A stretch of DNA of 42,090 nt, taken from the NCBI GenBank assembly GCA_021787565.1, contig JAJYLT010000032.1, positions 1 to 42,090 of the forward strand, given 5' to 3'. A program made the translations under genes and the position numbers. Shown one piece after another: positions 4,866 to 21,200 of the stretch; within the stretch, counting starts at the first letter, position 1; each line of letters begins with the position of its first letter. The notes beneath the pieces are model-generated. The model searched no databases. It was not told where the DNA came from and worked only from the letters and a program-made list of their open reading frames with translations. This DNA is from Acidobacteriota bacterium (lineage in GTDB: Bacteria > Acidobacteriota > UBA4820 > DSQY01).

Positions 4866-6161
4866 TTACGGATAGAGCCGGTAGAGCATGCGCGGATAGG
4901 GAATGGTCTCCCGGACGTGGTTCAGACCGCAGAGCCAGGCCACCGTCCGCTCGAGGCCTATCCCGAAACCGCCGTGTTTCACGGTTCCGTACCTGCGGAT
5001 GTCCAGGTACCACTGGAAGGCCTCTACCGGGAGGCCGTGCTCCCGGATGCGCGAGAGGAGCAGGTCGTGGTCGTGGATGCGCTCCGAGCCCCCGACGATC
5101 TCGCCGTAGCCCTCCGGGGCGAGCACGTCCACGCAGAGGGCCAGGCTCGGGTCCTCGGGATCGGGCTCCATGTAGAAGGCCTTCACCGCCGCCGGGTAGC
5201 GGTGGACCATGATGGGCCGGTCGTACTGCTGGGTGAGGATGGTCTCATCGTCGCCGCCGAAGTCGTCGCCGTACTTCAGGTCGCTGCCCAGCTCGTGGAG
5301 CTGCCGCACGGCGTCCTTATACTGCACGCGAGGGAAGGGCTTCTGGACCTTCTCCAGCTTGCTCGTGTCCCGCTCCAGGATCTTCATCTCCTCGGGGCAG
5401 CGATCCAGGATCCGCGAGACGACGCTGACCAGGAAGTCCTCCGACAGGGCCATCACGTCATCGAGGCCCGCGAAGGCCACCTCCGGCTCGAGCATCCAGA
5501 ATTCCATGAGGTGCCGGCGCGTCTTGCTCTTCTCGGCCCGGAAGGTGGGGCCGAAGCAGTAGACCTTTCCCAGCGCCATGCAGGCGGGCTCGAGGTAGAG
5601 CTGGCCGGACTGGCTGAGGTAGGCCTTCTCGCCGAAGTAGTCGGTCTGGAAGAGCGTGGTCGTCCCCTCGCAGGCCGCCGGCGTCAGGATGGGGCTGTCG
5701 ATGAGGGTGAAGCCGCTCTGGTAGAAGTAGTCCCGGAAGGCCTGTTCGATCTCGGAGCGGACCCTGAGGATGGCTACCTGCCGGGAGGAGCGCAGCCACA
5801 GGTGGCGGTTCTCCATGAGGAAGCCCGTGCCGTGCTCCTTCTTGCCGATGGGGTACTCCTCGGCCATGTGGTGCAGAACCAGCCCGGAGAGGGAGAGCTC
5901 CACCCCGCCCGGTGCTCGCTGGTCGATCCGCACCGTTCCCTCCACCGTGACGGAGGACTCCAGGGTCACGCGGTCCATGAGGTCGAAGACCTCGGGCGGG
6001 ACGTCGCGGACGAAGGCCACGCACTGGAGGTAGCCCGAGCCGTCCCGCAGAATCAGGAACCGGACCTTGCCGGAGGAGCGCTTGTTGTAGACCCAGCCGT
6101 CGAGGCTCACCTTCTCCCCGTCGTGGGCCGCCAGTTCCTTCACGGTGAGCTTGTGCAGCAT
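4866..6161 (-). CDS. asnS: Asparaginyl-tRNA synthetase
   Basis: A 431-residue class II aminoacyl-tRNA synthetase that charges tRNA(Asn) with asparagine in the cytoplasm. The N-terminal OB-fold anticodon-binding domain (about residues 1-110) includes the [20 protein letters not shown] strand set. The catalytic domain shows motif 2 in [21 protein letters not shown] and motif 3 in [13 protein letters not shown] near the C-terminus. The '[16 protein letters not shown]' form separates AsnRS from AspRS, and no GatCAB-dependent feature is apparent. Length is normal. The start ATG 6161 has a CAGGAG site about 7 bases upstream, and a strong sigma-70-type promoter lies just beyond. A 151-bp repeat ends 14 bp upstream of its -35 box. 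Confidence 0.95.
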
Positions 6162-6188: not shown

Positions 6189-6217
6189 ATTATAGACAAT
6201 TCAGGGCTTGCGGGCAA
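6189..6217 (-). promoter_or_regulatory. asnS promoter (sigma-70 type)
   Basis: On the minus strand, -35 TTGCCC (6212-6217) and -10 TATAAT (6189-6194) are separated by 17 bases. The -10 is a perfect consensus and lies about 28 bases upstream of the asnS ATG, leaving room for a short leader with the CAGGAG site. Boxes were read by eye. Confidence 0.7.
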
Positions 6218-6231
6218 TAGGGGGCGGCCGG

Positions 6232-6382
6232 CCCAAATTCCGCGATGGAATCGCACTCGTAGGAGCGCCGCCCCCGGCGCGACGGACCGTACGCGGGCAC
6301 CGCATCCTGGTCGCAGGGTCACCCGGTTCGCGGCGAGGCGCCGCTCCTACGCAGGCGTTGAGCCGCTATCGCGGAATCGGGG
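6232..6382 (+). repeat. 151-bp REP-pair (BIME-like) element, copy 1
   Basis: First of four near-identical 151-bp elements in the window. Left end CCCAAATTCCGCGAT and right end ATCGCGGAATCGGGG are inverted repeats. Inside are two opposed REP-like units: GTAGGAGCGCCGCCCCCGGC (a GCGCCG-CCC-CGGCGC hairpin) on the plus strand, and the mirror unit with a GCGGCG-CCT-CGCCGC hairpin on the minus strand. Each is preceded by GTAG, the typical 5' foot of REPs recognised by RAYT (TnpA-REP) enzymes. The left end is 14 bp from the asnS -35 box. Together with copy 3 it forms one sequence subtype (T in GGCGTTGAG, C in GGAATCGG). Confidence 0.9.
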
Positions 6383-6479
6383 GGCCGGACTCGCGAAGGG
6401 CGAATGGCGAATTGGATAGAGCACCCCGGGGACGGCGGTGTTGAGTCACCCCCGCGCTTATTCCCTTTTCACTCTTTGC

Positions 6480-6514
6480 TTCTCACTTCTTACTTCTCAC
6501 TTCTCACTTCTCAC
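6480..6514. repeat. Heptanucleotide tandem repeat, 5 x TTCTCAC
   Basis: Five head-to-tail copies of TTCTCAC (the second is TTCTTAC) lie 5 bp beyond the stop codon of the vWA/FHA gene. The surrounding 6460-6520 stretch is unusually pyrimidine-rich on the plus strand. On the transcribed strand of the minus gene this reads as purine-rich GTGAGAA repeats in the 3' untranslated region. No stem-loop terminator is evident there. Confidence 0.85.
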
Positions 6515-6519
6515 TATTT

Positions 6520-7800
6520 TCAGTTCAGCCGCTTCTGCTCCCTGCGGAACTGGAACTCGCACTGGCCGGCCCGGATGGTCGACCCGGCCTTGAGCTCCTT
6601 GAGGGTGACGCGCTCGCCGTCCAGGAAGGTTCCGTTGGTGGACTGGAGGTCGGCGAGGTAGTAGGTGCCCTCCTTGGGGACGATCCGGAAGTGCTGTCCC
6701 GAGAGGGTCTGGTCGGCGATGCAGAGCGTGTTCACCTTGTCGCGCCCCACGGAGACCACCTGGTCCGGCGGGAGCTGGAAGACGCGCGGGGGATTTTTGC
6801 CACGATGCAGAACCAGCACCGGGACCTCGTCCAGGACGAGGGTGTGCTCCAGGGCGTCCGAGCTGGGCCCCTTCTGGAGCAGGGCCGGATCGAGTTCGGG
6901 CACGGACTCGGCGGCCACGGACTGCGTCGCCGCGCCCGGGTTGGTGATGGAGAGCCTCTTGGCCAGGCACACGGGACATTCGGCCTCCCAGAGATTGAGC
7001 GGACGTCCGCACTGCTCGCACGCCCTCGCCTCCTGGAGCTTCGTCCGCTTCAACAGGACCACCACCCCGTAGGCCACGACGGCCAGTCCCGCGGCCAGCG
7101 CCAGGAGAAGGACCCACACCCACGCCCTGGAGGCGGGCGGTGGCGGAGGTGGAGGCTGGGGCTTCGCTTGTGGCGGCGCCGCCGGATGGGGTTGCGGCGG
7201 GGCGGGCGGATGCACGGGCGCCAGGGCGAGGCTGACCTTGGACCAAGCGCTGGCCACATCCCCCGACGTCATGCCCGAGAAGGGGCCGGCGTACTCACCC
7301 CCCGTGAGCGCGGCGATGCGCCTGAGCACCTTCAGGTCCTGGGCACCCATCCCCACGGCCACCACGGCCACGTGCGCCTGAGCGGCGCGGGAGGCCGCGT
7401 CCTCCAGAGTCACCGCCGAGTTCTCGTCCTTCCCGTCCGTGAAGAGCAGGACGACGCCCTCGCTGTTCTGCCCTTCCACGGCCTTGACCGCGGAAAAGAG
7501 GCAATCGTAGAGCAGGGTGTAGTGTCCTCCCTGTTTCAGCTTTCCGATGGCCGATTTCAGGGCCTCGGGGTCGCGGGTGAAGGACTGAACCTCCACGGGC
7601 GCGTCGTTGAACGCGTAGATGGCCACGGGCCCCTTCTCGGCCAGCGTGGGGGCGAGCCCCTCCAGCATGGACTTGGCCGCCTCGAACTGCGAGGGCGGTA
7701 TGGACCGGCTGGTGTCCACCAGCACGGCCGTGGGCGAAGCCAAGAGGACGATCGGCGCAAGGAGCACCGTCAGGACGATGGCAACGGCGAATCGGCGCAT
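6520..7800 (-). CDS. Membrane protein with exported vWA domain and cytoplasmic zinc ribbon + FHA domain
   Basis: This 426-residue protein has a signal peptide (residues 1-22), then a von Willebrand factor A domain (about 24-190) with an intact MIDAS start D29-T-S-R-S33 and the later FTDGKDEN strand (120-127). A proline-rich linker follows (198-223), then a transmembrane helix (226-251), a four-cysteine zinc ribbon (C261, C264, C275, C278) and a C-terminal FHA domain (about 345-422) with VGR (351-353), S367..H370 and TNG (388-390). The layout puts a metal-dependent ligand-binding domain outside the cytoplasmic membrane and a phosphothreonine reader inside, suggesting signal transfer across the membrane; that role is inference. 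The start has a strong GGGGGAGGAGG site and a good promoter. No neighbouring kinase is visible. Confidence 0.88.
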   Translation of the reverse strand: MRRFAVAIVLTVLLAPIVLLASPTAVLVDTSRSIPPSQFEAAKSMLEGLAPTLAEKGPVAIYAFNDAPVEVQSFTRDPEALKSAIGKLKQGGHYTLLYDCLFSAVKAVEGQNSEGVVLLFTDGKDENSAVTLEDAASRAAQAHVAVVAVGMGAQDLKVLRRIAALTGGEYAGPFSGMTSGDVASAWSKVSLALAPVHPPAPPQPHPAAPPQAKPQPPPPPPPASRAWVWVLLLALAAGLAVVAYGVVVLLKRTKLQEARACEQCGRPLNLWEAECPVCLAKRLSITNPGAATQSVAAESVPELDPALLQKGPSSDALEHTLVLDEVPVLVLHRGKNPPRVFQLPPDQVVSVGRDKVNTLCIADQTLSGQHFRIVPKEGTYYLADLQSTNGTFLDGERVTLKELKAGSTIRAGQCEFQFRREQKRLN

Positions 7801-7829
7801 GGCAGCCTCCTCCCCCAGAATACCCAGCT

Positions 7830-7859
7830 ATTATAAGGACTGATGCGCTCGGGCCGCAA
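7830..7859 (-). promoter_or_regulatory. Promoter of the vWA/FHA gene
   Basis: Minus-strand -35 TTGCGG (7854-7859) and perfect -10 TATAAT (7830-7835) with an 18-base spacer, about 30 bases upstream of the ATG. Repeat copy 2 begins 13 bp beyond the -35 box. Confidence 0.68.
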
Positions 7860-7872
7860 TAGACGGGGCCAC

Positions 7873-8023
7873 CCCAAATTCCGCGATGGAATCGCACTCG
7901 TAGGAGCGCCGCCCCCGGCGCGACGGACCGTACGCGGGCACCGCATCCTGGTCGCAGGGTCACCCGGTTCGCGGCGAGGCGCCGCTCCTACGCAGGCGTC
8001 GAGCCGCTATCGCGGAATTGGGG
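7873..8023 (+). repeat. 151-bp REP-pair (BIME-like) element, copy 2
   Basis: Same 151-bp element and orientation as copy 1, differing only at two sites (C in GGCGTCGAG and T in GGAATTGG), which it shares with copy 4. It fills the divergent intergenic region between the vWA/FHA gene and pepD, 13 bp from one -35 box and 9 bp from the other. Confidence 0.9.
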
Positions 8024-8032
8024 GCCACGACG

Positions 8033-8061
8033 TTGCCCGGCCCCTCTCGCTGTGGGAGAAT
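8033..8061 (+). promoter_or_regulatory. Putative pepD promoter
   Basis: TTGCCC (8033-8038), 17-base spacer, GAGAAT (8056-8061), about 50 bases upstream of the pepD ATG. The -35 box is the same as that of asnS and of the lipoprotein gene at 9664-10467. The -10 box is weaker than theirs. Confidence 0.45.
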
Positions 8062-8114
8062 CTCCCGAGGCGGCAGCCACGAAGCCGCGGTGCATCCTGG
8101 AAAGGAGTCCATGC

Positions 8115-9560
8115 ATGCTGAATCTGGAACCCAAGAAGGTGTGGGAACACTTCGAGAAGCTCAGCGCCATTCCTCGTCCTTCCAAGCACGAGAAGGCCGC
8201 CGGGGATTACGTGGTTTCGGTGGCGAAGGCCCGCCGAATGGAGTGGGAGCGGGACGAGGTCGGCAACGTGGTGATCCGGGTCCCCGCCACGAAGGGCCAC
8301 GAGAAGGCCGCCATCACGGTCCTTCAGGGCCACCTCGACATGGTGTGCGAGAAAAACTCGGGCACCGTGCACGATTTCTTGAAGGATCCCATCCGTCTGC
8401 GGGTCGAGGGAAAGGTCGTCAAGGCTGAAGGCACGACCCTAGGGGCCGATAACGGAATCGGAGTGGCCATGAGCCTGGCCCTCCTGGATGAGCCCCAAGC
8501 GGTTCACGGTCCCCTGGAGCTTCTTTTCACGATCGACGAGGAGACGGGCCTGAACGGCGCCAATAACCTGAAGCCCGGCTTCGTGAAGGGGCTGCGGATG
8601 CTGAACCTCGACACGGAGGAGGACGCCCAGCTCTACGTCGGCTGCGCCGGCGGCATCGACACCGTCATGAACCTGCGGGTGGGGCGCCGCCGCCAGAAGA
8701 GCCGCCAGCCGGCCTTCCGGCTCTCGGTCTCCGGCCTGCGCGGAGGCCATTCGGGCAGCGACATCAACGAGGGCCGCGGCAATGCCAACAGGATCCTCGT
8801 CCGGTTCCTCCAGGAGCTGGACCGCCTGTCCCTCGGCTACGAGCTGGCGGCCATTCAGGGCGGCTCCAAGCGCAACGCCATCCCCCGGGAGGCCTTCGCG
8901 CTCCTGCACGTGAAAAAGACGGCCATGGAGGAGGCGCACGGCGCGCTAAAGGCCTTTCAGGAGGTGGTTCGAGAGGAGCTCAGGGGGCTGGATGACGGCG
9001 TGACGCTCACCCTGGAGGAGGCCCGAAGCGACATGGCTCCCCTCTCCCCCGGCAGTCAGAAGAAGACCGTGCGGCTCCTGGGAGCCGTGCCCCACGGCCT
9101 CATCGCCTACAGCCTCGAAATCCACGGTCTCGTGGAGACCTCCACCAACTTCGCCATCGTGACCACGACCCAGGGCAAGGTCCAGGTGGCGACCTCCCAG
9201 CGCTCCAGCGTGGCCTCGCAGCTCGCCTGGGCGGCCCAGTGGGTGGCCAACGTGGGACTCCTGGCGGGTGCGCAGATCGTCCAGTCCGACGGGTATCCTG
9301 GCTGGAAACCCAATCTGGATTCCCCCATCCTGAAGGCCGCGCAGAAGACCTTCCTGCGGGTCATCGGCGAGGAGCCTCTGCCCAAGGCGATCCACGCGGG
9401 CCTCGAATGCGGCATCATCGGCGCGAAGTACCCCGGCATGGATATGGTCTCCCTCGGACCGGAAATCCGCAACGCGCACTCGCCCGACGAGGAGGTCCAC
9501 ATCGACTCGGTCAAGAGGACCTATGCCGTCCTCCTGGAGCTGCTGAAGGACCTGGCGTAG
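8115..9560 (+). CDS. pepD: Aminoacyl-histidine dipeptidase / cytosolic beta-alanyl-His type peptidase, M20 family
   Basis: A 481-residue M20 metallopeptidase of the PepD (Xaa-His dipeptidase) branch, which cleaves unblocked dipeptides in the cytoplasm with two metal ions. Metal and catalytic residues are present: H73 and D75 in QGHLDMVCEKN, D112 in TLGADNGIGVAM, the E142/E143 pair in TIDEETGLNG, D166 in LNLDTEE, and the C-terminal His in RNAHSPDEEVH. The lid domain has the family's SGLRGGHSGSDI element. Length matches PepD (about 485). ATG 8115 is chosen because AGGAG lies 8 bases upstream and the protein then begins MLNLEPKKVWEHFEKLSAIP, as homologues do; the in-frame upstream extension reaches back toward the repeat and is not credible. 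Confidence 0.93.
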   Translation: MLNLEPKKVWEHFEKLSAIPRPSKHEKAAGDYVVSVAKARRMEWERDEVGNVVIRVPATKGHEKAAITVLQGHLDMVCEKNSGTVHDFLKDPIRLRVEGKVVKAEGTTLGADNGIGVAMSLALLDEPQAVHGPLELLFTIDEETGLNGANNLKPGFVKGLRMLNLDTEEDAQLYVGCAGGIDTVMNLRVGRRRQKSRQPAFRLSVSGLRGGHSGSDINEGRGNANRILVRFLQELDRLSLGYELAAIQGGSKRNAIPREAFALLHVKKTAMEEAHGALKAFQEVVREELRGLDDGVTLTLEEARSDMAPLSPGSQKKTVRLLGAVPHGLIAYSLEIHGLVETSTNFAIVTTTQGKVQVATSQRSSVASQLAWAAQWVANVGLLAGAQIVQSDGYPGWKPNLDSPILKAAQKTFLRVIGEEPLPKAIHAGLECGIIGAKYPGMDMVSLGPEIRNAHSPDEEVHIDSVKRTYAVLLELLKDLA

Positions 9561-9606
9561 GGACGACTTGGATGGGGGATTTGGCAAGGGTGGATCGCAA
9601 CAAGAC

Positions 9607-9640
9607 ACGGGCGGGGAACTCTCTTCGGCTCCCCGCCCGT
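9607..9640. terminator. Shared stem-loop terminator between convergent pepD and lipoprotein genes
   Basis: An 11-bp perfect inverted repeat (ACGGGCGGGGA at 9607-9617, TCCCCGCCCGT at 9630-9640) with a 12-base loop lies between two convergent stop codons. On the plus strand it is followed by TGCTTTCGTT. There is no long U-run, so it may act as a bidirectional but imperfect terminator. Confidence 0.65.
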
Positions 9641-9663
9641 TGCTTTCGTTCCCCGCTGGCTCC

Positions 9664-10467
9664 CTACTGCCGGATGTTGACCCAGTCCTTCTCGATCTTG
9701 TCGAAGAGCGCCCCCTCGTCCTTGCCCAGCCGCGGCAGCCAGTAGGCGTAGAAGAGCTGGAAGTCGGGGTTGCTCATCTTCTTCAGGAAGGTGACGAACT
9801 CCTCGTGGCCCCCCATCGGGTCCCCCTGCTTCCGTTTGATCTGGGCCATGTAGAACCAGGCGTCCCTCATGGTGTAGGGAGTGTCCCCCAGGAAGTCGCT
9901 CCCCTTCTCGCACCTCGCGATGGCCGATTCGAAGGACTTCGCCGCCTCCGCGTAATTTCCCTGGTCGTAGAGGATCCGGCCCGTCAGGTAGTCGGCGATC
10001 TTGTCCCCGTCGATCCCCTTCTGGGTGCGGATCCAGCGGATCCAGGCCATGGCCGGCGGATAGTCGCGCATCAGGCGGTACATGGTCACCTCGCCGATCA
10101 CGTCCGCCAGCGGTCGAGCGGTTCGCGAGCGGGCGGCGTCGAAGTAGCGCAAGGCCTCCTTGTAGTTTCCCTCGTCCCAGTAGGTCTGGGCGATGGCCGC
10201 CGGCGGTTCGTCGGATTCCGGGCGCAGGGCCCACGCCCGCAGCAGGTAGAAACGGCGGGCCGCGGGAAGGGTGGTCAGCTTGCTCGGGAGCGGCTCACAG
10301 CAGAACATCCCGCGCTGCAGGATCTGGATGGACTTCTCGTCGGTCAGCCTCGTGGCGCAGTCCATCTCCTTCTTGTAGTGCTCGGCCTTCGATTGGAAGG
10401 CGCCGCAGCACCCCCCGAGAGCGAGGAGCATGAACGGCACGAGGATCCGAAAGGGTCTAGGGCTCAC
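9664..10467 (-). CDS. Tetratricopeptide-like lipoprotein
   Basis: This 267-residue exported protein starts MSPRPFRILVPFMLLALGGC, a lipoprotein signal with lipobox LGGC; the cysteine at residue 20 would be lipidated. The remainder is helical with TPR-like repeats, for example IAQTYWDEGNYKEALRYFDA and GRILYDQGNYAEAAKSFESA. Such proteins usually scaffold envelope complexes, but no partner is indicated here. The start is GTG 10467 because GGAGG lies 5 bases upstream. The in-frame ATG at 10479 itself contains that site, and a longer frame reaches into repeat copy 3 and is an artefact. A good promoter (TTGCCC-17-TACAAT) precedes it. It is convergent with pepD. No specific function recognised. Confidence 0.8.
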   Translation of the reverse strand: MSPRPFRILVPFMLLALGGCCGAFQSKAEHYKKEMDCATRLTDEKSIQILQRGMFCCEPLPSKLTTLPAARRFYLLRAWALRPESDEPPAAIAQTYWDEGNYKEALRYFDAARSRTARPLADVIGEVTMYRLMRDYPPAMAWIRWIRTQKGIDGDKIADYLTGRILYDQGNYAEAAKSFESAIARCEKGSDFLGDTPYTMRDAWFYMAQIKRKQGDPMGGHEEFVTFLKKMSNPDFQLFYAYWLPRLGKDEGALFDKIEKDWVNIRQ

Positions 10468-10485
10468 CTGAACCTCCATGCAGCC

Positions 10486-10514
10486 ATTGTAGGGACCGGA
10501 TCCGTCCGGGGCAA
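10486..10514 (-). promoter_or_regulatory. Promoter of the TPR-like lipoprotein gene
   Basis: Minus-strand TTGCCC (10509-10514), 17-base spacer, TACAAT (10486-10491). Transcription would begin around 10478, just before the GGAGG site, which supports the GTG start. Repeat copy 3 lies 55 bp upstream of the -35 box. Confidence 0.68.
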
Positions 10515-10569
10515 GCATCCTCACGTCGGCCGGCCTCCGGCGCGGCGAGGGCGCCTCGCCCCGAAAGCC

Positions 10570-10720
10570 CCCAAATTCCGCGATGGAATCGCACTCGTAG
10601 GAGCGCCGCCCCCGGCGCGACGGACCGTACGCGGGCACCGCATCCTGGTCGCAGGGTTACCCGGTTCGCGGCGAGGCGCCGCTCCTACGCAGGCGTTGAG
10701 CCGCTATCGCGGAATCGGGG
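10570..10720 (+). repeat. 151-bp REP-pair (BIME-like) element, copy 3
   Basis: Same 151-bp element and orientation; subtype as copy 1, with one private change (CAGGGTTAC instead of CAGGGTCAC). It lies in the divergent region between the lipoprotein gene and the FAD oxidoreductase gene. Confidence 0.9.
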
Positions 10721-10733
10721 AAGCCGACCGCCA

Positions 10734-10762
10734 TCGCCTGGCGCTGGACGTTGTGCTAGGAT
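10734..10762 (+). promoter_or_regulatory. Putative promoter of the FAD oxidoreductase gene (extended -10)
   Basis: TAGGAT (10757-10762) preceded by TGC gives an extended -10. TCGCCT (10734-10739) at 17-base spacing is a weak -35 resembling the TTGCCC used by neighbours. Repeat copy 3 ends 13 bp upstream. Confidence 0.4.
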
Positions 10763-10772
10763 GACGGGCCGA

Positions 10773-10796
10773 GCCCGAAAGCCGCACGGCTTGGGC
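10773..10796 (+). promoter_or_regulatory. Leader hairpin upstream of the FAD oxidoreductase gene
   Basis: GCCC-GA-AAGCCG-CA-CGGCTT-GGGC folds into a ten-pair stem with one small bulge and a two-base turn. It lies in the predicted 5' untranslated region, about 16 bases before the GGGAGG ribosome site. It could be a translational or termination control element, or simply an mRNA-stabilising structure. Confidence 0.4.
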
Positions 10797-10824
10797 CGGA
10801 CCGTGCCCCAGGGAGGTCGTTTCA

Positions 10825-11922
10825 ATGGAACGCTATGACGTGGTCATAATTGGGGCAGGATTCGCCGGAGCAGCCACGGCATGGTGGCTCCGCCGGTTCG
10901 GCGTGGACAGCGTCCTCCTCCTCGAACAGGAGCAGGTCCCGGGCGCGCACGCCTCCGGAAAGAACGCGGGCATGGCCCGCCAAGCCGTCCCCGAACCCAT
11001 CCAGTGCCTCCTGGCGGCCCGGAGCGTCTCCTTCTTCAAGGCACCTCCGGACGGCTTTACAGAGACCCCTCTGTTCGCCGAGAACGGCGGGGTCTTCCTG
11101 GGCCCGGAACCGGAGGATCCCAGACTGGAGCAGCTCCGGCACAACGCCATGGCCGCCGGGGTCTTCACCTATTTCGGCGAGCGCCTGGAGGCCATCGAGA
11201 GGGCTCCCATTCTCCAGGATGCGCCCTTTCACTCGGCGCTCATCTGCCCGACCGACGGCCTCGTGGACATCCACTCCCTGCTCTCGGCCTTTCTGCGGGG
11301 GAGCGCGCTGAGGACGGGCGTCCGGGTGCAAGGATTCGAGTCCTCGGAGGGAAGGCTGACGGCCGTGAAGACGCGCGATGGCTCCATCCGGTGCGAGCGC
11401 GTCGTCCTCGCGGCGGGCGCATGGTCGCGCCAGCTCGGCACCCTCGCGGGGGGGCTCCCCGTTCCCGTCACCCCCAGGCGCCGCCATCTCATCCACTCGG
11501 GCCCCATCCCATGGGCCGACCCGCTATGGCCCTACGTCTGGTGCCTGAATCCCGAAGTCTACTTCCGGCCGGAGAGCGGCGGCTTCCTCCTCTCCCCCTG
11601 CGACGAGGCTGTCTTCGAGCCGGGATCGCCACCGACCGATCCCGAGGCGCCCCTCTGGCTCGCCTCCCGCCTCTCGGAGGCCGTCCCCCGCATGAGCTCC
11701 ATCCCCGTGGCCCGGAGCTGGAGCGAGCTCCGCTGTTTCACGCCCGACGGCGAGTTCTGCATCGGTCCCGATCCGATGCGCCCCAACCTGTTCTGGGTCT
11801 GCGGCCTGGGCGGCCACGGCATGACCACCTCGGCCGCCGTGGGCGAGCTGGCCGCCCAGCTCATCACGGGTGCCGATCCCTTCATGGATCCAGCCCCCAT
11901 GGCGCCGGGACGGTTCGCCTGA
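10825..11922 (+). CDS. FAD-dependent oxidoreductase, DAO family (D-amino-acid/glycine oxidase-dehydrogenase like)
   Basis: A 365-residue flavoprotein of the DAO superfamily, which oxidises amines or amino acids, often delivering electrons to the respiratory chain. The N-terminus MERYDVVIIGAGFAGAATAW holds the Rossmann GxGxxG motif. It is followed by the substrate/FAD region HASGKNAGMARQ, reminiscent of DauA/DadA dehydrogenases, and the C-terminal FAD segment VCGLGGHGMTTSAAVGELAA is present. Length is normal for single-domain members. GGGAGG lies about 8 bases before the ATG. Substrate cannot be read from sequence; D-amino acid dehydrogenase is the best guess. The gene is convergent with the next one (23-bp gap) and stands alone. 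Confidence 0.85.
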   Translation: MERYDVVIIGAGFAGAATAWWLRRFGVDSVLLLEQEQVPGAHASGKNAGMARQAVPEPIQCLLAARSVSFFKAPPDGFTETPLFAENGGVFLGPEPEDPRLEQLRHNAMAAGVFTYFGERLEAIERAPILQDAPFHSALICPTDGLVDIHSLLSAFLRGSALRTGVRVQGFESSEGRLTAVKTRDGSIRCERVVLAAGAWSRQLGTLAGGLPVPVTPRRRHLIHSGPIPWADPLWPYVWCLNPEVYFRPESGGFLLSPCDEAVFEPGSPPTDPEAPLWLASRLSEAVPRMSSIPVARSWSELRCFTPDGEFCIGPDPMRPNLFWVCGLGGHGMTTSAAVGELAAQLITGADPFMDPAPMAPGRFA

Positions 11923-11945
11923 TCGGTGGGAGGTAGCCGTCGGGG

Positions 11946-12488
11946 CTAGGGCTCTGCCCGAACGGGCGCTTCGTTCTGCGTCTGGCGGAGAAGGATGAGG
12001 CAGGATCGGGCTCCGCGTCCCATGGCCTCGCGGACTTCGGTGCTCCAGATGGTGCCCGGCAGGGCGATCTCCAGCCACGAGGCCCAGACCCGCTGGCAGG
12101 CGATGCACGGCGTGTCGGGACGCAGACCCGCCTTTCCCGCTCCCTCCTGGGGGAAACATCGGGTGACGCGGACCTCCAGACCCGTCTCTCCAACCACCCA
12201 CCGCGCCGCCATTCCCTCGCCGAGGAATATGCGGTTGTAGCCGTCGAGGAGCCGCACCGCCTCCTCCACCGACGACGCAGGAGGCCGGTCGAGGGCCTTC
12301 AGGTACTCCCGTATCTCGATCCTCCCGAAGCTCGCCCTGACCCTCGCGTTGAGCTCCACGGCCTTGGGCAGCCCGCACGCCTCCGCGACCTTCAGGAACC
12401 ACTGGCCGTCCCAGGCCAGCATGAGCCGCCCCAGGAGGCGTCGCGCCTCTTCCTCGGAGAGCTGGTTTTCAGGCCCGCGTTCTTTCAT
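11946..12488 (-). CDS. DUF6125-like cytosolic protein
   Basis: A 180-residue soluble protein without signal or membrane segments. The N-terminal part reads LSEEEARRLLGRLMLAWDGQ, then WFLKVAEACGLPKAVELNAR, resembling the family now labelled DUF6125. A C-terminal cysteine pair occurs in DTPCIACQRVW. Function of the family is unknown to me. ATG 12488 is chosen because GGGAG lies 6 bases upstream; a longer open frame begins inside repeat copy 4 and shares a spurious N-terminus with the lipoprotein gene's longer frame. A promoter with -10 TACAAT precedes it. Confidence 0.72.
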   Translation of the reverse strand: MKERGPENQLSEEEARRLLGRLMLAWDGQWFLKVAEACGLPKAVELNARVRASFGRIEIREYLKALDRPPASSVEEAVRLLDGYNRIFLGEGMAARWVVGETGLEVRVTRCFPQEGAGKAGLRPDTPCIACQRVWASWLEIALPGTIWSTEVREAMGRGARSCLILLRQTQNEAPVRAEP

Positions 12489-12506
12489 GATCTTCTCCCG
12501 CCGGGC

Positions 12507-12535
12507 ATTGTACAGCGCGCAGGTTCGCGCGTGAA
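12507..12535 (-). promoter_or_regulatory. Promoter of the DUF6125-like gene
   Basis: Minus-strand TTCACG (12530-12535), 17-base spacer, TACAAT (12507-12512), about 18 bases upstream of the ATG. Repeat copy 4 begins 13 bp beyond the -35 box. Confidence 0.55.
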
Positions 12536-12548
12536 GCGCGGAAGGGAG

Positions 12549-12699
12549 CCCAAATTCCGCGATGGAATTGCACTCGTAGGAGCGCCGCCCCCGGCGCGAC
12601 GGACCGTACGCGGGCACCGCATCCTGGTCGCAGGGTCACCCGGTTCGCGGCGAGGCGCCGCTCCTACGCAGGCGTCGAGCCGCTGTCGCGGAATTGGGG
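12549..12699 (+). repeat. 151-bp REP-pair (BIME-like) element, copy 4
   Basis: Same 151-bp element and orientation; subtype as copy 2, with two private changes (GGAATTGCAC near the left end and CCGCTGTCG near the right end). It lies in the divergent region between the DUF6125-like gene and the GYF membrane-protein gene. Confidence 0.9.
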
Positions 12700-12936
12700 G
12701 GGAGGGCGGGGCGGCCCCGGCAGCGGGCCCACTCCGGCGCGTTCCGCATGGCCACACGCCTCGGGGGAGGGACGAGCAGGCTAGAGGCCGTGCCCTTTAG
12801 GTTTCCGTGCGGCCCTGCTTCCGATCCCGCGTTGACAGGGAATCGCCGCTGTGGCAAGGTCGAAGCAGAATGCCTCGCCGGCACCGCCTCTCAGCTTAAC
12901 GCGGCCCGCGAGGAAGGCCGTGGGAGGGGGACGGGG
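12700..12936 (+). other. Upstream region of the zinc-ribbon/GYF membrane protein
   Basis: The 237 bases between repeat copy 4 and the next start codon hold no credible gene. A consensus -35 TTGACA occurs at 12832-12837, but the hexamer 17 bases downstream (CAAGGT) is a poor -10, so the promoter call is weak. The rest is GC-rich with no clear structure. Confidence 0.35.
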
Positions 12937-14416: not shown

Positions 14417-17400
14417 CTACATTCCGCACCCCGGTGGGTCATCGAGCGTATTGGCATCGGAAAGGGCCGAAGAAACGGCGGCGGACGAGTCGGTGAAGGT
14501 CGCTGTGGCCCTGTGGGCGGTAGTGTAGTACAGGAGGTTCATGGACAGACCCTGGCCTGGCGAGGCGGTGATGCGCAGGTAGCCACTGCCCTGTGTGACC
14601 GTGCCCGCCCCGGTGAAGGTCTGCCCTGCCCCATTGCCTTTCAGTACGGCCCAAGACCAGTTCCCGTTTTGGCTGTTGGCACACATGGAGGACCTACCGT
14701 AGTCGTCAGTGAAGTGCAGGTCGTAGGGGGGGACCGAGACCGTGATCGCGACTTGGGACGTTGCGGTTCTGGCTTCGGCGTCCGTTGCGGTCACGGTGGC
14801 TGTAAAGGTCCCCGCCGAGGTATACGTGTGGGACGTGCTGGCTCCCGTGCCGGTTCCCCCGTCTCCGAAAGCCCAGGAGAACGAATAGGGAGCCGTTCCT
14901 CCGGAAGCCGTGGCCGTTAAGCTTACGGCTAGGGGCGCCTGTCCTGCGGTGGGGGTGGCCGAAGCCGCCACCGCCAAGGAAGGGGTCACCGTGATCGTCA
15001 CCTGGGCCGTCGCGCTGTGCGAGGCCGAGTCCGTGGCCGTGACGACAGCATCAAAGAGGCCCGCTGCGGAATAGGTGTGCGAGGGGGTGGAGCCCGTGCC
15101 TGTACCACCATCTCCGAAGACCCAGGAATAGGTGTACGGAGAAGTGCCACCGGAAGCCGTGGCCGTGAAGGCGACCGCCAGGGGCACCACACCCGAGGTC
15201 GGGGTGGCGGAGGCCAATACGGACAGCGGCGCGCCCACGCTGATTGTGGCCTGGGCCGTGGCCGTGTGCGAGGCCGAGTCCGTTGCTGTCACGGTGGCCG
15301 TGAAGCTCCCGCCCGACGTGTAGGTGTGGCTGAGGCTGGCCCCCGTGCCGGCGCCTCCATCCCCAAAGGCCCATGCAAAGGTATACGGACCGGTTCCTCC
15401 GCTTGTTGACGCGGAGAAAGATACGGGCAGAGGGGCAATTCCCGACGTTGGGTTAGCGGTGGCCGTCACCGAGAGACCGGCCGTCACCGTGATCGTGACC
15501 TGGGCCGTCGTGCTGTGCGAGGCCGAGTCCGTGGCTGTGACCATGGCCGTGTACGTGCCCGCTGAAGCGTAGGTATGCGAGGGGGATGTCCCGGATCCCG
15601 TTGTGCCGTCGCCGAAAACCCAGGCGTAAGTATAGGGCGGGACACCGCCCGAAGCGCTCGCCGCAAGGGTCACGGACAGCGGGGCACTGCCGGAAGCCGG
15701 CACGGCGGAGGCGCTTACGGCCAAGGCCGGTGTAGCCGTGACGGTCACCGTCGCCGATGCGGTGTTTGAAGCGCTGTCCGTGACCGTCACCCGGGCCGTG
15801 TAGCTCCCAGCCGTTGTGTAGGTGTGCGTGGGCGTCGCTCCGGCCCCCGTGTTGCCGTCGCCGAAGTCCCACACATAGGTGTAGGGGGTGGCCCCCCCAG
15901 AAGCGGAGGCCGTGAAGGTGACGGCAAACGGGACCATGCCGAGCGAAGGCGTGGCGGATGCAGAAACCACCATGCTGACGTTGATCGCAGCCTGGGCAGA
16001 GGCCGTGTGAGAGGCGCTATCCGTGACGGTCAGCGTAGCGGTGTACGCCCCCGCCAATGAGTACGTGTGTGAGACCGTGGCTCCGCTGCCCGAATTCCCA
16101 TCTCCAAACGCCCAGGCATAGGTGTACGGGGAAACGCCCCCCGTGGCTGACCCCGTGAAAGTGACGGCCAGAGGCGCTGGGCCCGAGGTCACACTCGCTA
16201 CAACGCTCGCCGCCAAAGGCGGAGTGGCCGTAACCGTCACCGTAGCTGCACCCGTATGCGACGCACCGTCCGTTGCCGTTACGACCGCAGTGTACGTGCC
16301 CGCTGTTGAATAAGTATGCGAAGGCGTGGCGCCTGATCCCACAGTGCCATCGCCGAAAGTCCAGCTGTAGGTGTACGGAGGGGTACCGGCCGAGGCGGAG
16401 GCGCTGAAGGCGACGGTGAGCGGAACCATGCCGAGCGGGGGAGTGGCCGATGCGGAAAGCGTCAGGTTGACGGTGACCACGGCCTGCCCCGTGGCCGTGT
16501 GCGATGCGGCGTCGGTCGCTGTCACGGTGGCCGTGAATGTCCCTGCCGAGCTGTACGTATGGGATGCTGTGGCCCCCGTGCCGGTTCCTCCATCGCCGAA
16601 GGCCCAGGCATAGGTGTACGGCGCGGTCCCGCCCGAAGCCACAGCCGTGAAGGTCACCGCGAGCGGTGCAGGCCCAGAAATGGGCGAAGCCGATGCGGTC
16701 ACCGACAAGGGAGAGGTCACCGTGATGGCCACTTGGGCCGTCGCAGTGCGGGATCCCGAGTCGGTTGCCGTCACGGTAGCCGTGAAGCTTCCTGCCGAGT
16801 TGTAGGTATGGGATGTGGTGGCCCCCGTGCCGGTTCCCCCGTCGCCGAAGGCCCAGGCATAGGTGTACGGCGCCGTCCCGCCCGAAGCGGCAGCCGTGAA
16901 AGCGACCGGCAAGGGCATGACACCCGAAGCCGGATTGGCGGAAGCGGTGACCGACAGGGGCGGAACGACCGTGACCGTCACTTGGGCCGTTGCCGTAGCC
17001 TGCATGGCGTCTGTGGTGGTCACCACGGCTGTAAAGGCGCCTGCCGAGCTGTAGATGTGCGAAGGGGCGGCACCCGTACCCGAGCCGCCATCTCCGAAAA
17101 CCCAGGAATAGGTGTACGGGGAGAACCCGCCCGAAGCCGTAGCCGCGAAGCGCACCGTCAGGGGAGCCGCACCGCTCGTAGGATTCGCCGTGCAAGTCAC
17201 GGAAAGCGGCGCGGAAGAGCCTACAGTAGCGGTGATGATGTAATTCACGCGGCCAGGGTCTACGTTGGCGACTCCGAAGTACCAATTCGCAGCCGCCGGA
17301 TTCTGTATGCTCACACTCTCGGAGGTGGTTCCGTCGTTGACGGAGCGGGCCGTGTAGGTGACGAGGGTAGGCTCAGACCCCTGGCGCACGTAGAGGTCAG

Positions 17401-17632
17401 CGTCGGCGCAGAGCCCCGTGAGCGTCACCGTGAGATTCGCCGCGCCACTCGGGATCTGAATGGCGTAGTAGTCCCAGGGCCCGTACTGGGAGAGATTGTT
17501 GAGGGAGCCCGCCTGCGGAACTCCACTGGTCAGGCCCGTCTGCGCTCGCACACCCAGTCCCGCCAGCGCGCCCAGGAGCACTACCGCCAGGCCCAGGACC
17601 GTACCCCACCGACTTCGCCTCTGTGCGTTCAT
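14417..17632 (-). CDS. Secreted PPC-domain protein with ten PKD repeats
   Basis: A 1071-residue exported protein. Residues 1-30 form a signal peptide ending GVRAQ. A bacterial pre-peptidase C-terminal (PPC) domain follows (about 35-135: YYAIQIPSGAANLTVTLTGL, ADADLYVRQG). Then come ten PKD domains of about 83 residues, each with the W-x-FGDG core and an SHTY strand (for example APYTYAWAFGDGGTGTGA). The C-terminal about 100 residues (LHFTDDYGRSSMC onward) are not PKD and resemble nothing I can name. PKD arrays act as rigid extracellular spacers or adhesive stalks; no catalytic domain is present. GAGGGAG precedes the ATG. The repeats are unusually alike at DNA level. It is convergent with the GYF gene and downstream of the RHS locus. 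Confidence 0.88.
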   Translation of the reverse strand: MNAQRRSRWGTVLGLAVVLLGALAGLGVRAQTGLTSGVPQAGSLNNLSQYGPWDYYAIQIPSGAANLTVTLTGLCADADLYVRQGSEPTLVTYTARSVNDGTTSESVSIQNPAAANWYFGVANVDPGRVNYIITATVGSSAPLSVTCTANPTSGAAPLTVRFAATASGGFSPYTYSWVFGDGGSGTGAAPSHIYSSAGAFTAVVTTTDAMQATATAQVTVTVVPPLSVTASANPASGVMPLPVAFTAAASGGTAPYTYAWAFGDGGTGTGATTSHTYNSAGSFTATVTATDSGSRTATAQVAITVTSPLSVTASASPISGPAPLAVTFTAVASGGTAPYTYAWAFGDGGTGTGATASHTYSSAGTFTATVTATDAASHTATGQAVVTVNLTLSASATPPLGMVPLTVAFSASASAGTPPYTYSWTFGDGTVGSGATPSHTYSTAGTYTAVVTATDGASHTGAATVTVTATPPLAASVVASVTSGPAPLAVTFTGSATGGVSPYTYAWAFGDGNSGSGATVSHTYSLAGAYTATLTVTDSASHTASAQAAINVSMVVSASATPSLGMVPFAVTFTASASGGATPYTYVWDFGDGNTGAGATPTHTYTTAGSYTARVTVTDSASNTASATVTVTATPALAVSASAVPASGSAPLSVTLAASASGGVPPYTYAWVFGDGTTGSGTSPSHTYASAGTYTAMVTATDSASHSTTAQVTITVTAGLSVTATANPTSGIAPLPVSFSASTSGGTGPYTFAWAFGDGGAGTGASLSHTYTSGGSFTATVTATDSASHTATAQATISVGAPLSVLASATPTSGVVPLAVAFTATASGGTSPYTYSWVFGDGGTGTGSTPSHTYSAAGLFDAVVTATDSASHSATAQVTITVTPSLAVAASATPTAGQAPLAVSLTATASGGTAPYSFSWAFGDGGTGTGASTSHTYTSAGTFTATVTATDAEARTATSQVAITVSVPPYDLHFTDDYGRSSMCANSQNGNWSWAVLKGNGAGQTFTGAGTVTQGSGYLRITASPGQGLSMNLLYYTTAHRATATFTDSSAAVSSALSDANTLDDPPGCGM
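14820..17120 (-). repeat. Tandem DNA array of about 249 bp units encoding PKD domains
   Basis: The codons for the PKD core recur near 14885, 15130, 15379, 15628, 15877, 16120, 16369, 16612, 16861 and 17110: spacing is mostly 249 bp, with steps of 243 at two places. Adjacent units share long identical runs (for example CCGAAGGCCCAGGCATAGGT in two successive units), so unequal crossing-over could change copy number. Confidence 0.8.
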
Positions 17633-18262: not shown

Positions 18263-21200
18263 CTACTGAATGGGCTGAAGATGCCACACTTCCTTCGTGG
18301 CGGGATTGTGAATCATCTCCCAGCCACCGTATTCATACCGGAAAAAGCCCTGTTTGACGATGTCGGGAGTGGCTTCTGTAGCGCTTTGCAAAACCTCTCT
18401 GGCCACAAGGGAAGGGGCCCCGCGGCCCGTGTCCCATAGCTTGTTATAGTAGTACTCGCTGAATTTGAAGCCATTAACCTCGTAGTAACCATCCTTCAGA
18501 ACGGCAGTGGATCCCTGCTCGACGAGTGACGATGCTCCTCTTGTGGCACCAATGGAACGCTCTGCTTCGCCCCCCTTGGCCAATTGAGAAAGCGGGGCAT
18601 TGAGCATATCTCCCAGCTTGGTCCCTTCGGATAACGCTTGAAGAGTCTTTCCCGCGAGACCTACCCCCAACATGATGTTGCTGGCCCTGCCAACATCTTG
18701 AAGCGCTCCTTCGGCCGCCCCTACATAATCCCCTCTCGAAGCCGCGTCATAGCTGGCGTAGGCCCCGTCCCCCAGCCTGAAAGTGTCCGCCGCCATCTTG
18801 ACTGCGTCTCCCAGCATCCCTGCCGCTGCATAATCCATGGCGCTGGCGTTCGTATTGGAGACTGCGCCAACGGCTTGATCCACCCTTGCATCGACCCAGT
18901 CGGCGAAGTCCTCACCCCACCCAAGCCCAGCGGGGTCCATGAACAAGAGCGGGCACTCGCTCGTGTACGCATACTGGTTCAGCGTCCTCGGGTCATGGAC
19001 ATTGAAGCTGCCGCTGGGGTCGGCGCTGATGAAGCGTGCGGCCGTGCCGAGGTACCGGTTCGGCGTGTAGAACACCCCCGCGTCCTGGTGCTCGTCCTGC
19101 AGGCTGGCGAACCCCAGCTTCGTGAAGGGCTGGTCATGGTAGAACCCCAGGTCCTCGCCGTACGGGCCCGCGAAGCTCCTCGACAGCACGTTGCCCTGGT
19201 TGTCCACCCACATCCGTGGGCTACCCGTCACGTCCAGAACCGGGTACTCGTACGTGAGGCTCGCTTCGGCCACAGCCTCCGGCGTACGATAGTCCGCCGG
19301 ATCCACATTCGGGACGTACTGGTCCCACGCCATAGCCCAGAAGGTCTCGACGCCGGCCGCCTGCGTCCCCCCGGAAGTCATTCCCCACCTGCGAGAACGC
19401 CCGGCGGCCACGGGCGACGCCGTGCAGGGAGAGCTGTAGGGGGCAAAGTTCAGTATCGCCACCAGGCGTCCCGACGCGTACACGTAGTCCCGCTTCGGCG
19501 TGATGGCCCCTCCGTTCAGGCTCTCCATCTCCGACAATAGCTCCCCGGCCCCGTCGTAGAAAGCATAGCCCACGTGGTTCCCCTGCGCGTCCGTCCACGA
19601 GGTCCGCACCCGCCGCCCGGCCGGGTCATAGGCATAGGTGAAGCTGCCACCCCCCGTCTTGGAGGCCGTCGCCGCCAGGTTGAGCGCGTTCATCGTGTAG
19701 GTGTACGGCCCGTCCTGCATCACGTTCCCGCGCCCGTCGTACCCCACCGACGCGTCCTGGTTCGTTGAGGGGTGGTAAGACCGGCTCAGCGCGAGCGCCG
19801 AGGCGTTCGGGATGCCGCCCGCCGCCGTACGGGACTGGAGGTTGCCGTACACGTCATAGCCGTACCCGAGGCTTCCGGTGACCGCCCCCGTGAGGGTCTC
19901 GCCCGTCAATCGGTGCAGGTCGTCATACTGGTACGCTACGTTGAGCGTCCCCAGGCCCTGGGGATCGCCGTGGCTCTGGCTCGATAGGTTGCCCGATGGG
20001 AAGTAGCTGAGGGCCGACTGGTAGAGCGTGGTGGCCGACTTCTTGAAGGTGAGCGTGGCGGGACGGTTGAAAGTGTCGTCGGTCGCGGTCCACGCGGAGG
20101 CGCCCGCGTCGTAGCCAAGCAGGTTCTTGTCGGGGCCATACTGCAGGGACGACACAAACGGGGTGCTGCCGTTGCCCAGTTGCGCCGGGAGACCCGCATA
20201 GTTGAAGCCGGACGCCTGTACGGCCTGGCCCGAAGGATACGTGATCTGGCCCAGCTCGCCCCGGTCGTTGTAGTCGTAGCCCACGGTGAAGGCGGTGTTG
20301 TCCACCGTGGTGATCTGCCTAAAGAGGCGGCCATGGCTGTCATAGGAGTTGCATAAGGACCGGATCACGTTTCCCGTGGGGTCCAGGTTGGCTTGGTACA
20401 GGAGGTGGTTCGCGGGATTCGCCGAGGGTCCCGAGCACCCACCCGGATACGCGTCGTATACGTTTCGGACCTTCGAGTTGTCGTCGAAGAGGATCTGCGT
20501 AACCCGTCCCGCGAAGTCGGGGGTGTACTGGATCCGGCTGTTGTCAGCGAAGGTACGCTTGATGAGGTTGCCGGCATGATCGTACACGAGGTGCGTCGTA
20601 CCCGACTCGGGCAGCATGCTGGTCAGGAGCTGTCCTGTGCTCGCGTAGGTAAAGGTGCGAGTTTGGGAACCGTCCTGAATCTCGGTCAGGTGATCGAGCG
20701 GGTCGTAGGTGTAGTACACGGTGTTGTTGGCATCGTCAAGGAGCTTCGTCAGGTTCCCATCCGAGTCGTACCACTCTTCGGTTTGGACCGTGCCGCTCGC
20801 CGCCGAGGCGGGCCGCGTGATGGTCACATGTACGCAGTCCACGGAGGTGTCCGCGGTATAGGCGTAGCTGGTCTGCGACTCCTGCGTGCCGTTGGCTCTG
20901 TAGGCCGTCACCGTGAGGGGGCGGCCGAGGGCGTCGTAAGTGGTCGTCACCTTGCCCTTGTCGCCCACATTGAAGTACGGAACGTACCGGTCCGTGGCGC
21001 GGCTCAGCGCGTCCACGCCCGTATCTTCGTGAGCGGTTTGAGCGGTGGCGAAGACCATGCGTTTGGAGGCGAGGTTGCCAAATCCATCGAAATCGTAGTC
21101 TGTGCGCTCAAGGCTTGCCCCCACCAGCAATTCCACCTGCGGAGGTTTGGCCGTGTAGGTGATGGCGGTCGCCTGAGCGGTCACCGTGCCGCTGTAATCC

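Follow-up and report, generated by a model that had tools for sequence, protein, structure and literature searches.

A 151-bp inverted-repeat element with an internal REP pair, inserted at promoters in an Acidobacteriota genome

Miniature inverted-repeat transposable elements (MITEs) of bacteria, such as RUP, NEMIS/Correia, Nezha and ERIC, are short, non-coding and intergenic, carry terminal inverted repeats (TIRs), are bordered by a target duplication and occur in recent multi-copy bursts. In the passages found in a 2024 review of prokaryotic MITEs, none is described as targeting promoters in the way reported here (PMC10969869). Insertion upstream of promoters is known for TnGBS, ISLre2 and some ISKra4 elements (prokaryotic Mutator-like, p-MULT, 3 and 4), whose insertions lie upstream of sigmaA -35 boxes at a distance of 13-17 bp. 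Those with near-perfect repeats are flanked by promoters on both sides, and the group has 8-9-bp duplications and 18-39-bp repeats (PMC3942029). All those described are autonomous insertion sequences (ISs), transposons or integrative and conjugative elements. A third type of repeat, the repetitive extragenic palindromic (REP) sequence, also found as bacterial interspersed mosaic elements (BIMEs) and REPINs, consists of GTRG-footed hairpins in head-to-head pairs, with GA after the stem, and depends on REP-associated tyrosine transposases (RAYTs). GTAG REPs, RAYTs and TIR-flanked tyrosine transposases have been described in Acidobacteria, and in the TIR-GTAG hybrids of Pseudomonas and in TIRtrons GTAG repeats or RAYT-type genes are joined to inverted repeats (PMC3733652). 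We have analysed a stretch of 42,090 nucleotides from an Acidobacteriota bacterium (GenBank assembly GCA_021787565.1, contig JAJYLT010000032.1, positions 1 to 42,090), called the window below. It is contig C19 of a metagenome-assembled genome (MAG) of 3.47 Mb in 77 contigs, and it contains four copies of a gene-free mobile element of 151 bp that resembles each of these systems in part.

The four copies (copy 1, 6232-6382; copy 2, 7873-8023; copy 3, 10570-10720; copy 4, 12549-12699) are located between genes, all on the plus strand, and differ at a handful of positions. Alignment of the copies and the genome search agree here with the original prediction, made from the sequence alone, which had also reported 15-bp TIRs (6232-6246 and 6368-6382 in copy 1) and two opposed hairpins. 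In the main copies the TIRs read CCC[A/C]AATTCCGCGAT. The conserved block starts with CCCAAATTCCGCGAT and ends with ATCGCGGAAT[C/T]GGGG, and identity is lost abruptly at either border. The genome-wide search for further copies that had been proposed gave at least 108 matches to a 31-bp left signature (up to three mismatches), compared with none for the reversed pattern. Of these, 104 copies were examined: 94 are complete at 151 bp, with no insertions or deletions, the median number of differences from the consensus is two, and ten copies match it exactly. Of about 85,000 species genomes, none but this one contains the exact signature, the element as a unit was not found in 59 relatives, and it was not found in plasmids, phages or other species. 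The spread of the copies is a recent, species-level burst. The linked changes shared by copies 1 and 3 and by copies 2 and 4 had been attributed to two active source subtypes or to gene conversion. The haplotypes do not support two subtypes: in 88 copies the variants concerned, 147C (copies 1 and 3) and 128C (copies 2 and 4), occur 16 and 5 times around one dominant haplotype (29 copies). At one locus (L118, C6:168818-169121 of this genome, G000) a young and an old copy of the 151-bp type (80% identical) stand in tandem with only shared target sequence between them.

Although no obvious target duplication had been noticed, all four window copies have one: GGCCGG at copy 1 (6226-6231 and 6383-6388), GCCAC at copy 2 (7868-7872 and 8024-8028), AAGCC at copy 3 (10565-10569 and 10721-10725) and GGGAG at copy 4 (12544-12548 and 12700-12704). 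Genome-wide, an exact 5-bp duplication in a single junction register flanks 56 of the 104 copies, while random re-pairing of the flanks predicts 0.7. Empty sites, whose comparison with the occupied ones had also been suggested, are provided by the nearest named relative, the MAG Acidobacteria bacterium BP9.bin43 (L250; window M20 peptidase 92% identical, flanking DNA about 93%), in which all four insertion sites are unoccupied. With one duplication removed, occupied and empty sites align without gaps at the junction for copies 2 and 3 and to within 1 bp for copy 4; at copy 1 the right side of the empty site is more diverged. Both the TIRs and the fixed-length duplication are as in a MITE. We are confident, short of certainty, that the 151-bp unit is a non-autonomous DNA transposon moved in trans by a transposase of the DDE (aspartate-aspartate-glutamate) type and not by a RAYT. 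The DDE chemistry is suggested by the target duplications, and these, together with the empty sites, strongly disfavour a RAYT as the mover of the unit.

The same ends are not limited to this element. Elements of about 140 bp and of 260-330 bp, in this genome and in sister genomes, share the ends of the 151-bp type and have different interiors, some of them with no REP at all. In the sister genomes, 25 of 47 elements of about 260-330 bp have a 5-bp duplication in the same register. The shared ends and duplication length point to one transposase type that recognises these ends and has been active across the whole lineage. One sister species (G001; loci L189, L191 and L330-L369) shows a burst of its own, of REP-free elements of about 270-326 bp that share these TIRs and are in part nested in one another.

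The original prediction missed the position of the insertions with respect to promoters. With the flanks read outward, 15 of 104 copies have a TTGAC that begins exactly 13 bp from the left end, no other offset has more than two, and TATAAT-like hexamers peak at offsets 36-38. At offset 13 alone, a simple -35/-10 score is above 7 bits for 44 of 104 left flanks. When both ends are considered, a sigma70-like promoter of more than 7 bits is found 12-15 bp outside the element in 70 of 104 copies; by the same criterion the rate is about 3% per copy in shuffled flanks and 1.05% at 20,000 random positions of the genome. Promoters are found on the left in 48 cases and on the right in 29, and 40 of the 48 left promoters in the sequence logo have an offset of exactly 13 bp. 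Insertion is directed to promoters. The distance to the -35 box is sharper than that to the -10 box, which makes the -35 side the probable place at which the enzyme is positioned. RUP, NEMIS/Correia, Nezha and ERIC lack both this fixed 1-bp register and the REP-pair interior, and no MITE with promoter-register targeting, or REP pair in a DDE-type MITE, was found in the literature searched (most subscription journals lay outside it).

In the window, copies 1, 2 and 4 are upstream of strong promoters and copy 3 is beside a weaker site. The promoter by copy 1 (6189-6217, minus strand; TTGCCC at 6217-6212, a spacer of 17 bp and TATAAT at 6194-6189; 16 bits, offset 14) points away from the element, into a gene for a class II aminoacyl-tRNA synthetase (4866-6161), and is visible also in the empty site of BP9.bin43. 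That by copy 2 (7830-7859, minus strand; TTGCGG, 18 bp, TATAAT; 12.4 bits, offset 13) is directed to a VWA/FHA gene (6520-7800), and that by copy 4 (12507-12535, minus strand; TTCACG, 17 bp, TACAAT; 12.6 bits, offset 13) to a minus-strand open reading frame starting near 12488. To the right of copy 3 there is a weak promoter-like site (10734-10762, plus strand; TCGCCT, 17 bp, TAGGAT with TG before it; offset 13) of 6.6 bits, under the 7-bit threshold, directed toward a gene for a FAD-dependent oxidoreductase (10825-11922).

We propose, with good confidence overall, the following mechanism. A DDE-type transposase acting in trans would recognise the 15-bp inverted ends and cut the target with a 5-bp stagger, its integration complex usually docking on sigma70-type promoter DNA, in the simplest form on RNA polymerase or sigma bound to it. 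The element would be inserted upstream of the -35 box, at a distance of about 10 bp, and the core promoter would stay intact, so that the element could spread at low cost to the host. The head-to-head REP pair would have been captured from a RAYT system at some point and then kept almost unchanged. A bolder version would have an undescribed transposase lineage dock on the RNA polymerase-promoter complex and cut, with a 5-bp stagger, some 10 bp on the upstream side of the -35 box; by its action a captured REP pair under functional constraint would have reached the upstream edge of scores of promoters. We offer this bolder version tentatively and would not give it an even chance. Several points weigh against the proposed mechanism in general. 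Even at 5 bits, 23 of 104 copies have no promoter on either side. In the sister genomes the same register is weaker (10 of 47 copies, 1.3 expected), being seen in only about a fifth of the copies. The 104 copies are not all those of the genome, which is a metagenome assembly. The promoter matrix consists of approximate E. coli frequencies; the exact TTGAC counts peak alike without it. Finally, searches by TIR pattern, by two DDE families (PF13701 and PF01609) and for long TIR pairs in about 0.8 Mb gave no autonomous partner with these ends, either in the genome or in its relatives.

If such a polymerase-docking lineage exists, the element would be a non-autonomous vehicle that rewires or insulates promoters genome-wide. 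In the literature found, promoter-targeted transposition in bacteria is a property of a single transposase superfamily, which makes duplications of 8-9 bp. The 5-bp duplications and one-base register suggest either a second type of enzyme at the same docking place or a known type that is more flexible. More than 100 near-identical insertions, most of them at one spot upstream of the -35 box and with empty sites in a relative, also constitute a natural experiment on promoter-upstream DNA.

The known type would be a p-MULT transposase of the TnGBS/ISLre2/ISKra4 kind with an atypically short stagger. Like those elements, the 151-bp element inserts upstream of a sigma70/sigmaA -35 box with a short, constant spacing, and its 13 bp falls within their target zone of 13-17 bp (PMC3942029). 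Near-perfect ends go with promoters on both sides there (PMC3942029) and here, and the ends of both start with C. A 9-bp stagger at 16 bp would be centred about 11.5 bp from the -35 box and a 5-bp stagger at 13 bp about 10.5 bp from it; both centres fall at 10-12 bp and would all but coincide on the promoter. The duplications of 8-9 bp and repeats of 18-39 bp described for that group contrast with 5 bp and 15 bp here, and the present element is non-autonomous. By analogy, then, it appears to work like p-MULT elements and to fall outside them on duplication length; a p-MULT enzyme is a serious candidate, but we think the odds are somewhat against it.

A transposase of the IS1380 family is less probable, and we consider it unlikely. 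Members of this family have CC-ended repeats and 4-5-bp duplications, and the end of ISEcp1 (CCTAGATTCTACGT) agrees with that of the element in about 10 of 14 positions. An intact IS1380 transposase is present in one relative (G006). This copy, however, lacks these ends, no gene of the present genome scores above the cut-off, and of three plasmid copies inspected the ends could be identified in two, neither resembling those of the element. Searches with PF13701 and PF01609 gave transposases of the IS4, IS1634 and IS5 types and one of IS1380, none with these ends. A TIR pattern search excluding the main MITE gave six exact matches, none of them an IS, and a search for TIR pairs 0.6-4 kb apart in about 0.8 Mb of the genome's own sequence and the window gave nothing convincing. 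One transposase considered as a partner (L099, on C3) was rejected, having neither relatives in the sister genomes nor matching ends. Two other transposase genes were noted. One (L098, C37:109452) is of the IS4 type, with an internal stop followed by a stretch matching a group II intron maturase domain; the other (L214, C62:32999) is an intact IS1634-family gene whose candidate ends are 12 bp long (TGGATCTTC...) and whose duplication, CCTGG, is of 5 bp.

It could also be argued that there is no targeting: insertion would be random, and selection would retain copies upstream of core promoters as a harmless place in a gene-dense genome. The window copies are indeed intergenic, and selection against insertions in genes is to be expected anyway. 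Tolerance would, however, predict a broad range of distances upstream of the -35 box, whereas the peak actually seen spans a single base and other offsets are at background. We regard this explanation as very improbable.

The second unusual feature of the element is its interior, which consists of two opposed GTAGGAGCG hairpins, head to head. Position search and folding of copy 1 give a left unit at 6259-6282 (plus strand; GTAGGA-GCGCCG-CCCC-CGGCGC-GA) and a right unit at 6328-6350 (minus strand; GTAGGA-GCGGCG-CCT-CGCCGC-GA). The REP-like, head-to-head hairpins of the original prediction are thus borne out; both had been described as triloops, which is true of the right unit, whereas the left has a 4-nt loop. 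Four REP stems occur in the genome (GCGCCG, GCGGCG, GCGATC and GCCGTC), all different from each other, with a GTRGGA foot and GA end common to all. Because the stem changes while foot and tail stay constant, the interior is assigned to the REP class, and on this comparison of sequences we regard it as a genuine REP pair. As the signature used to find the copies covers part of the left REP, variation in the REPs was compared only at sites outside it: the arms vary at 0.3% (11/3432) and the rest of the interior at 1.3% (68/5368; p = 1e-6, 88 main copies), a four-fold difference, even though the REPs hold more CpG. Selection for REP function, a need for the hairpin in transposition, or gene conversion could each be responsible for this constancy.

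The genome does encode RAYT genes, which the original prediction had proposed to look for. One, at C48:20308, scores above the NCBIfam cut-off for REP-associated tyrosine transposases, its best solved relative being TnpA-REP 4er8. It is located in a REPtron (L067, C48:18808-21975), where it is flanked by two REP types in tandem inverted pairs, GTGGGA-GCGATC-GCCT-GATCGC-GA and GTGGGA-GCCGTC-GCC[T/C]-GACGGC-GA. The first of these has 26 exact matches in all, with copies elsewhere in the genome, many of them outside TIR elements. Both types are also found in the MITE of about 140 bp, between TIRs of the 151-bp type, the first REP differing by one loop base. Two MITE types with different REPs suggest that these MITEs have taken up REPs at least twice. 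Copies of the 140-bp type are present at L100, L101, L103, L110 and L382:173, and two flank a pilT-like gene region (C27:20492-22986). No cognate RAYT with the element's own REP type (A-type) was found: the REPs on the two sides of the C48 RAYT are of the GTGGGAGCGATCGCC and GTGGGAGCCGTCGCC types, and no A-type hairpin adjoins any of the other six Y1 genes. One Y1 transposase (L061, C43:6906-7229) has a C-terminal part that matches a DnaA domain model.

The original prediction had taken the element for a REP/BIME unit mobilised by a RAYT, in which case the REP pair itself would be mobile and the TIRs and duplications incidental. The hairpins do belong to the REP class and form a head-to-head pair, the genome has RAYT genes, one within a REP array, and the REP arms are the best conserved part of the element. 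The conserved borders, however, are at the TIRs and not at the REPs, and the 5-bp duplications contradict such a mode of movement. The TIRs and duplications are present also on REP-free elements, A-type REPs other than those of the main copies were, in every case inspected, between such TIRs or their remnants, the RAYT array has other stems, and no Y1 gene is near these TIRs or A-type REPs. This explanation is hardly tenable. Unlike in REP/BIME/REPIN systems, the REP pair would be cargo between TIRs, moving with target duplications. A DDE-type MITE with this cargo unites two mobility systems usually kept apart, and it would be one route by which REPs could spread. A TIRtron, with a TIRYT-type tyrosine transposase moving these TIRs, is just as implausible: such TIR-flanked genes are reported from Acidobacteria and the genome has seven Y1 genes, but no copy of this TIR lies within about 1.5 kb of any of them, and HUH enzymes of the IS200/IS605 group are not expected to duplicate their target.

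Two further features were noticed. A minisatellite (CTTCTCACT / AGAAGTGAG) adjoins MITE insertions, in the window at 6465-6515 and also in the flanks of L101 and L103; it is apparently dispersed and intergenic. At 14417-17632 the window encodes a protein of 1071 amino acids, in which about ten PKD domains are accompanied by a pre-peptidase C-terminal domain.

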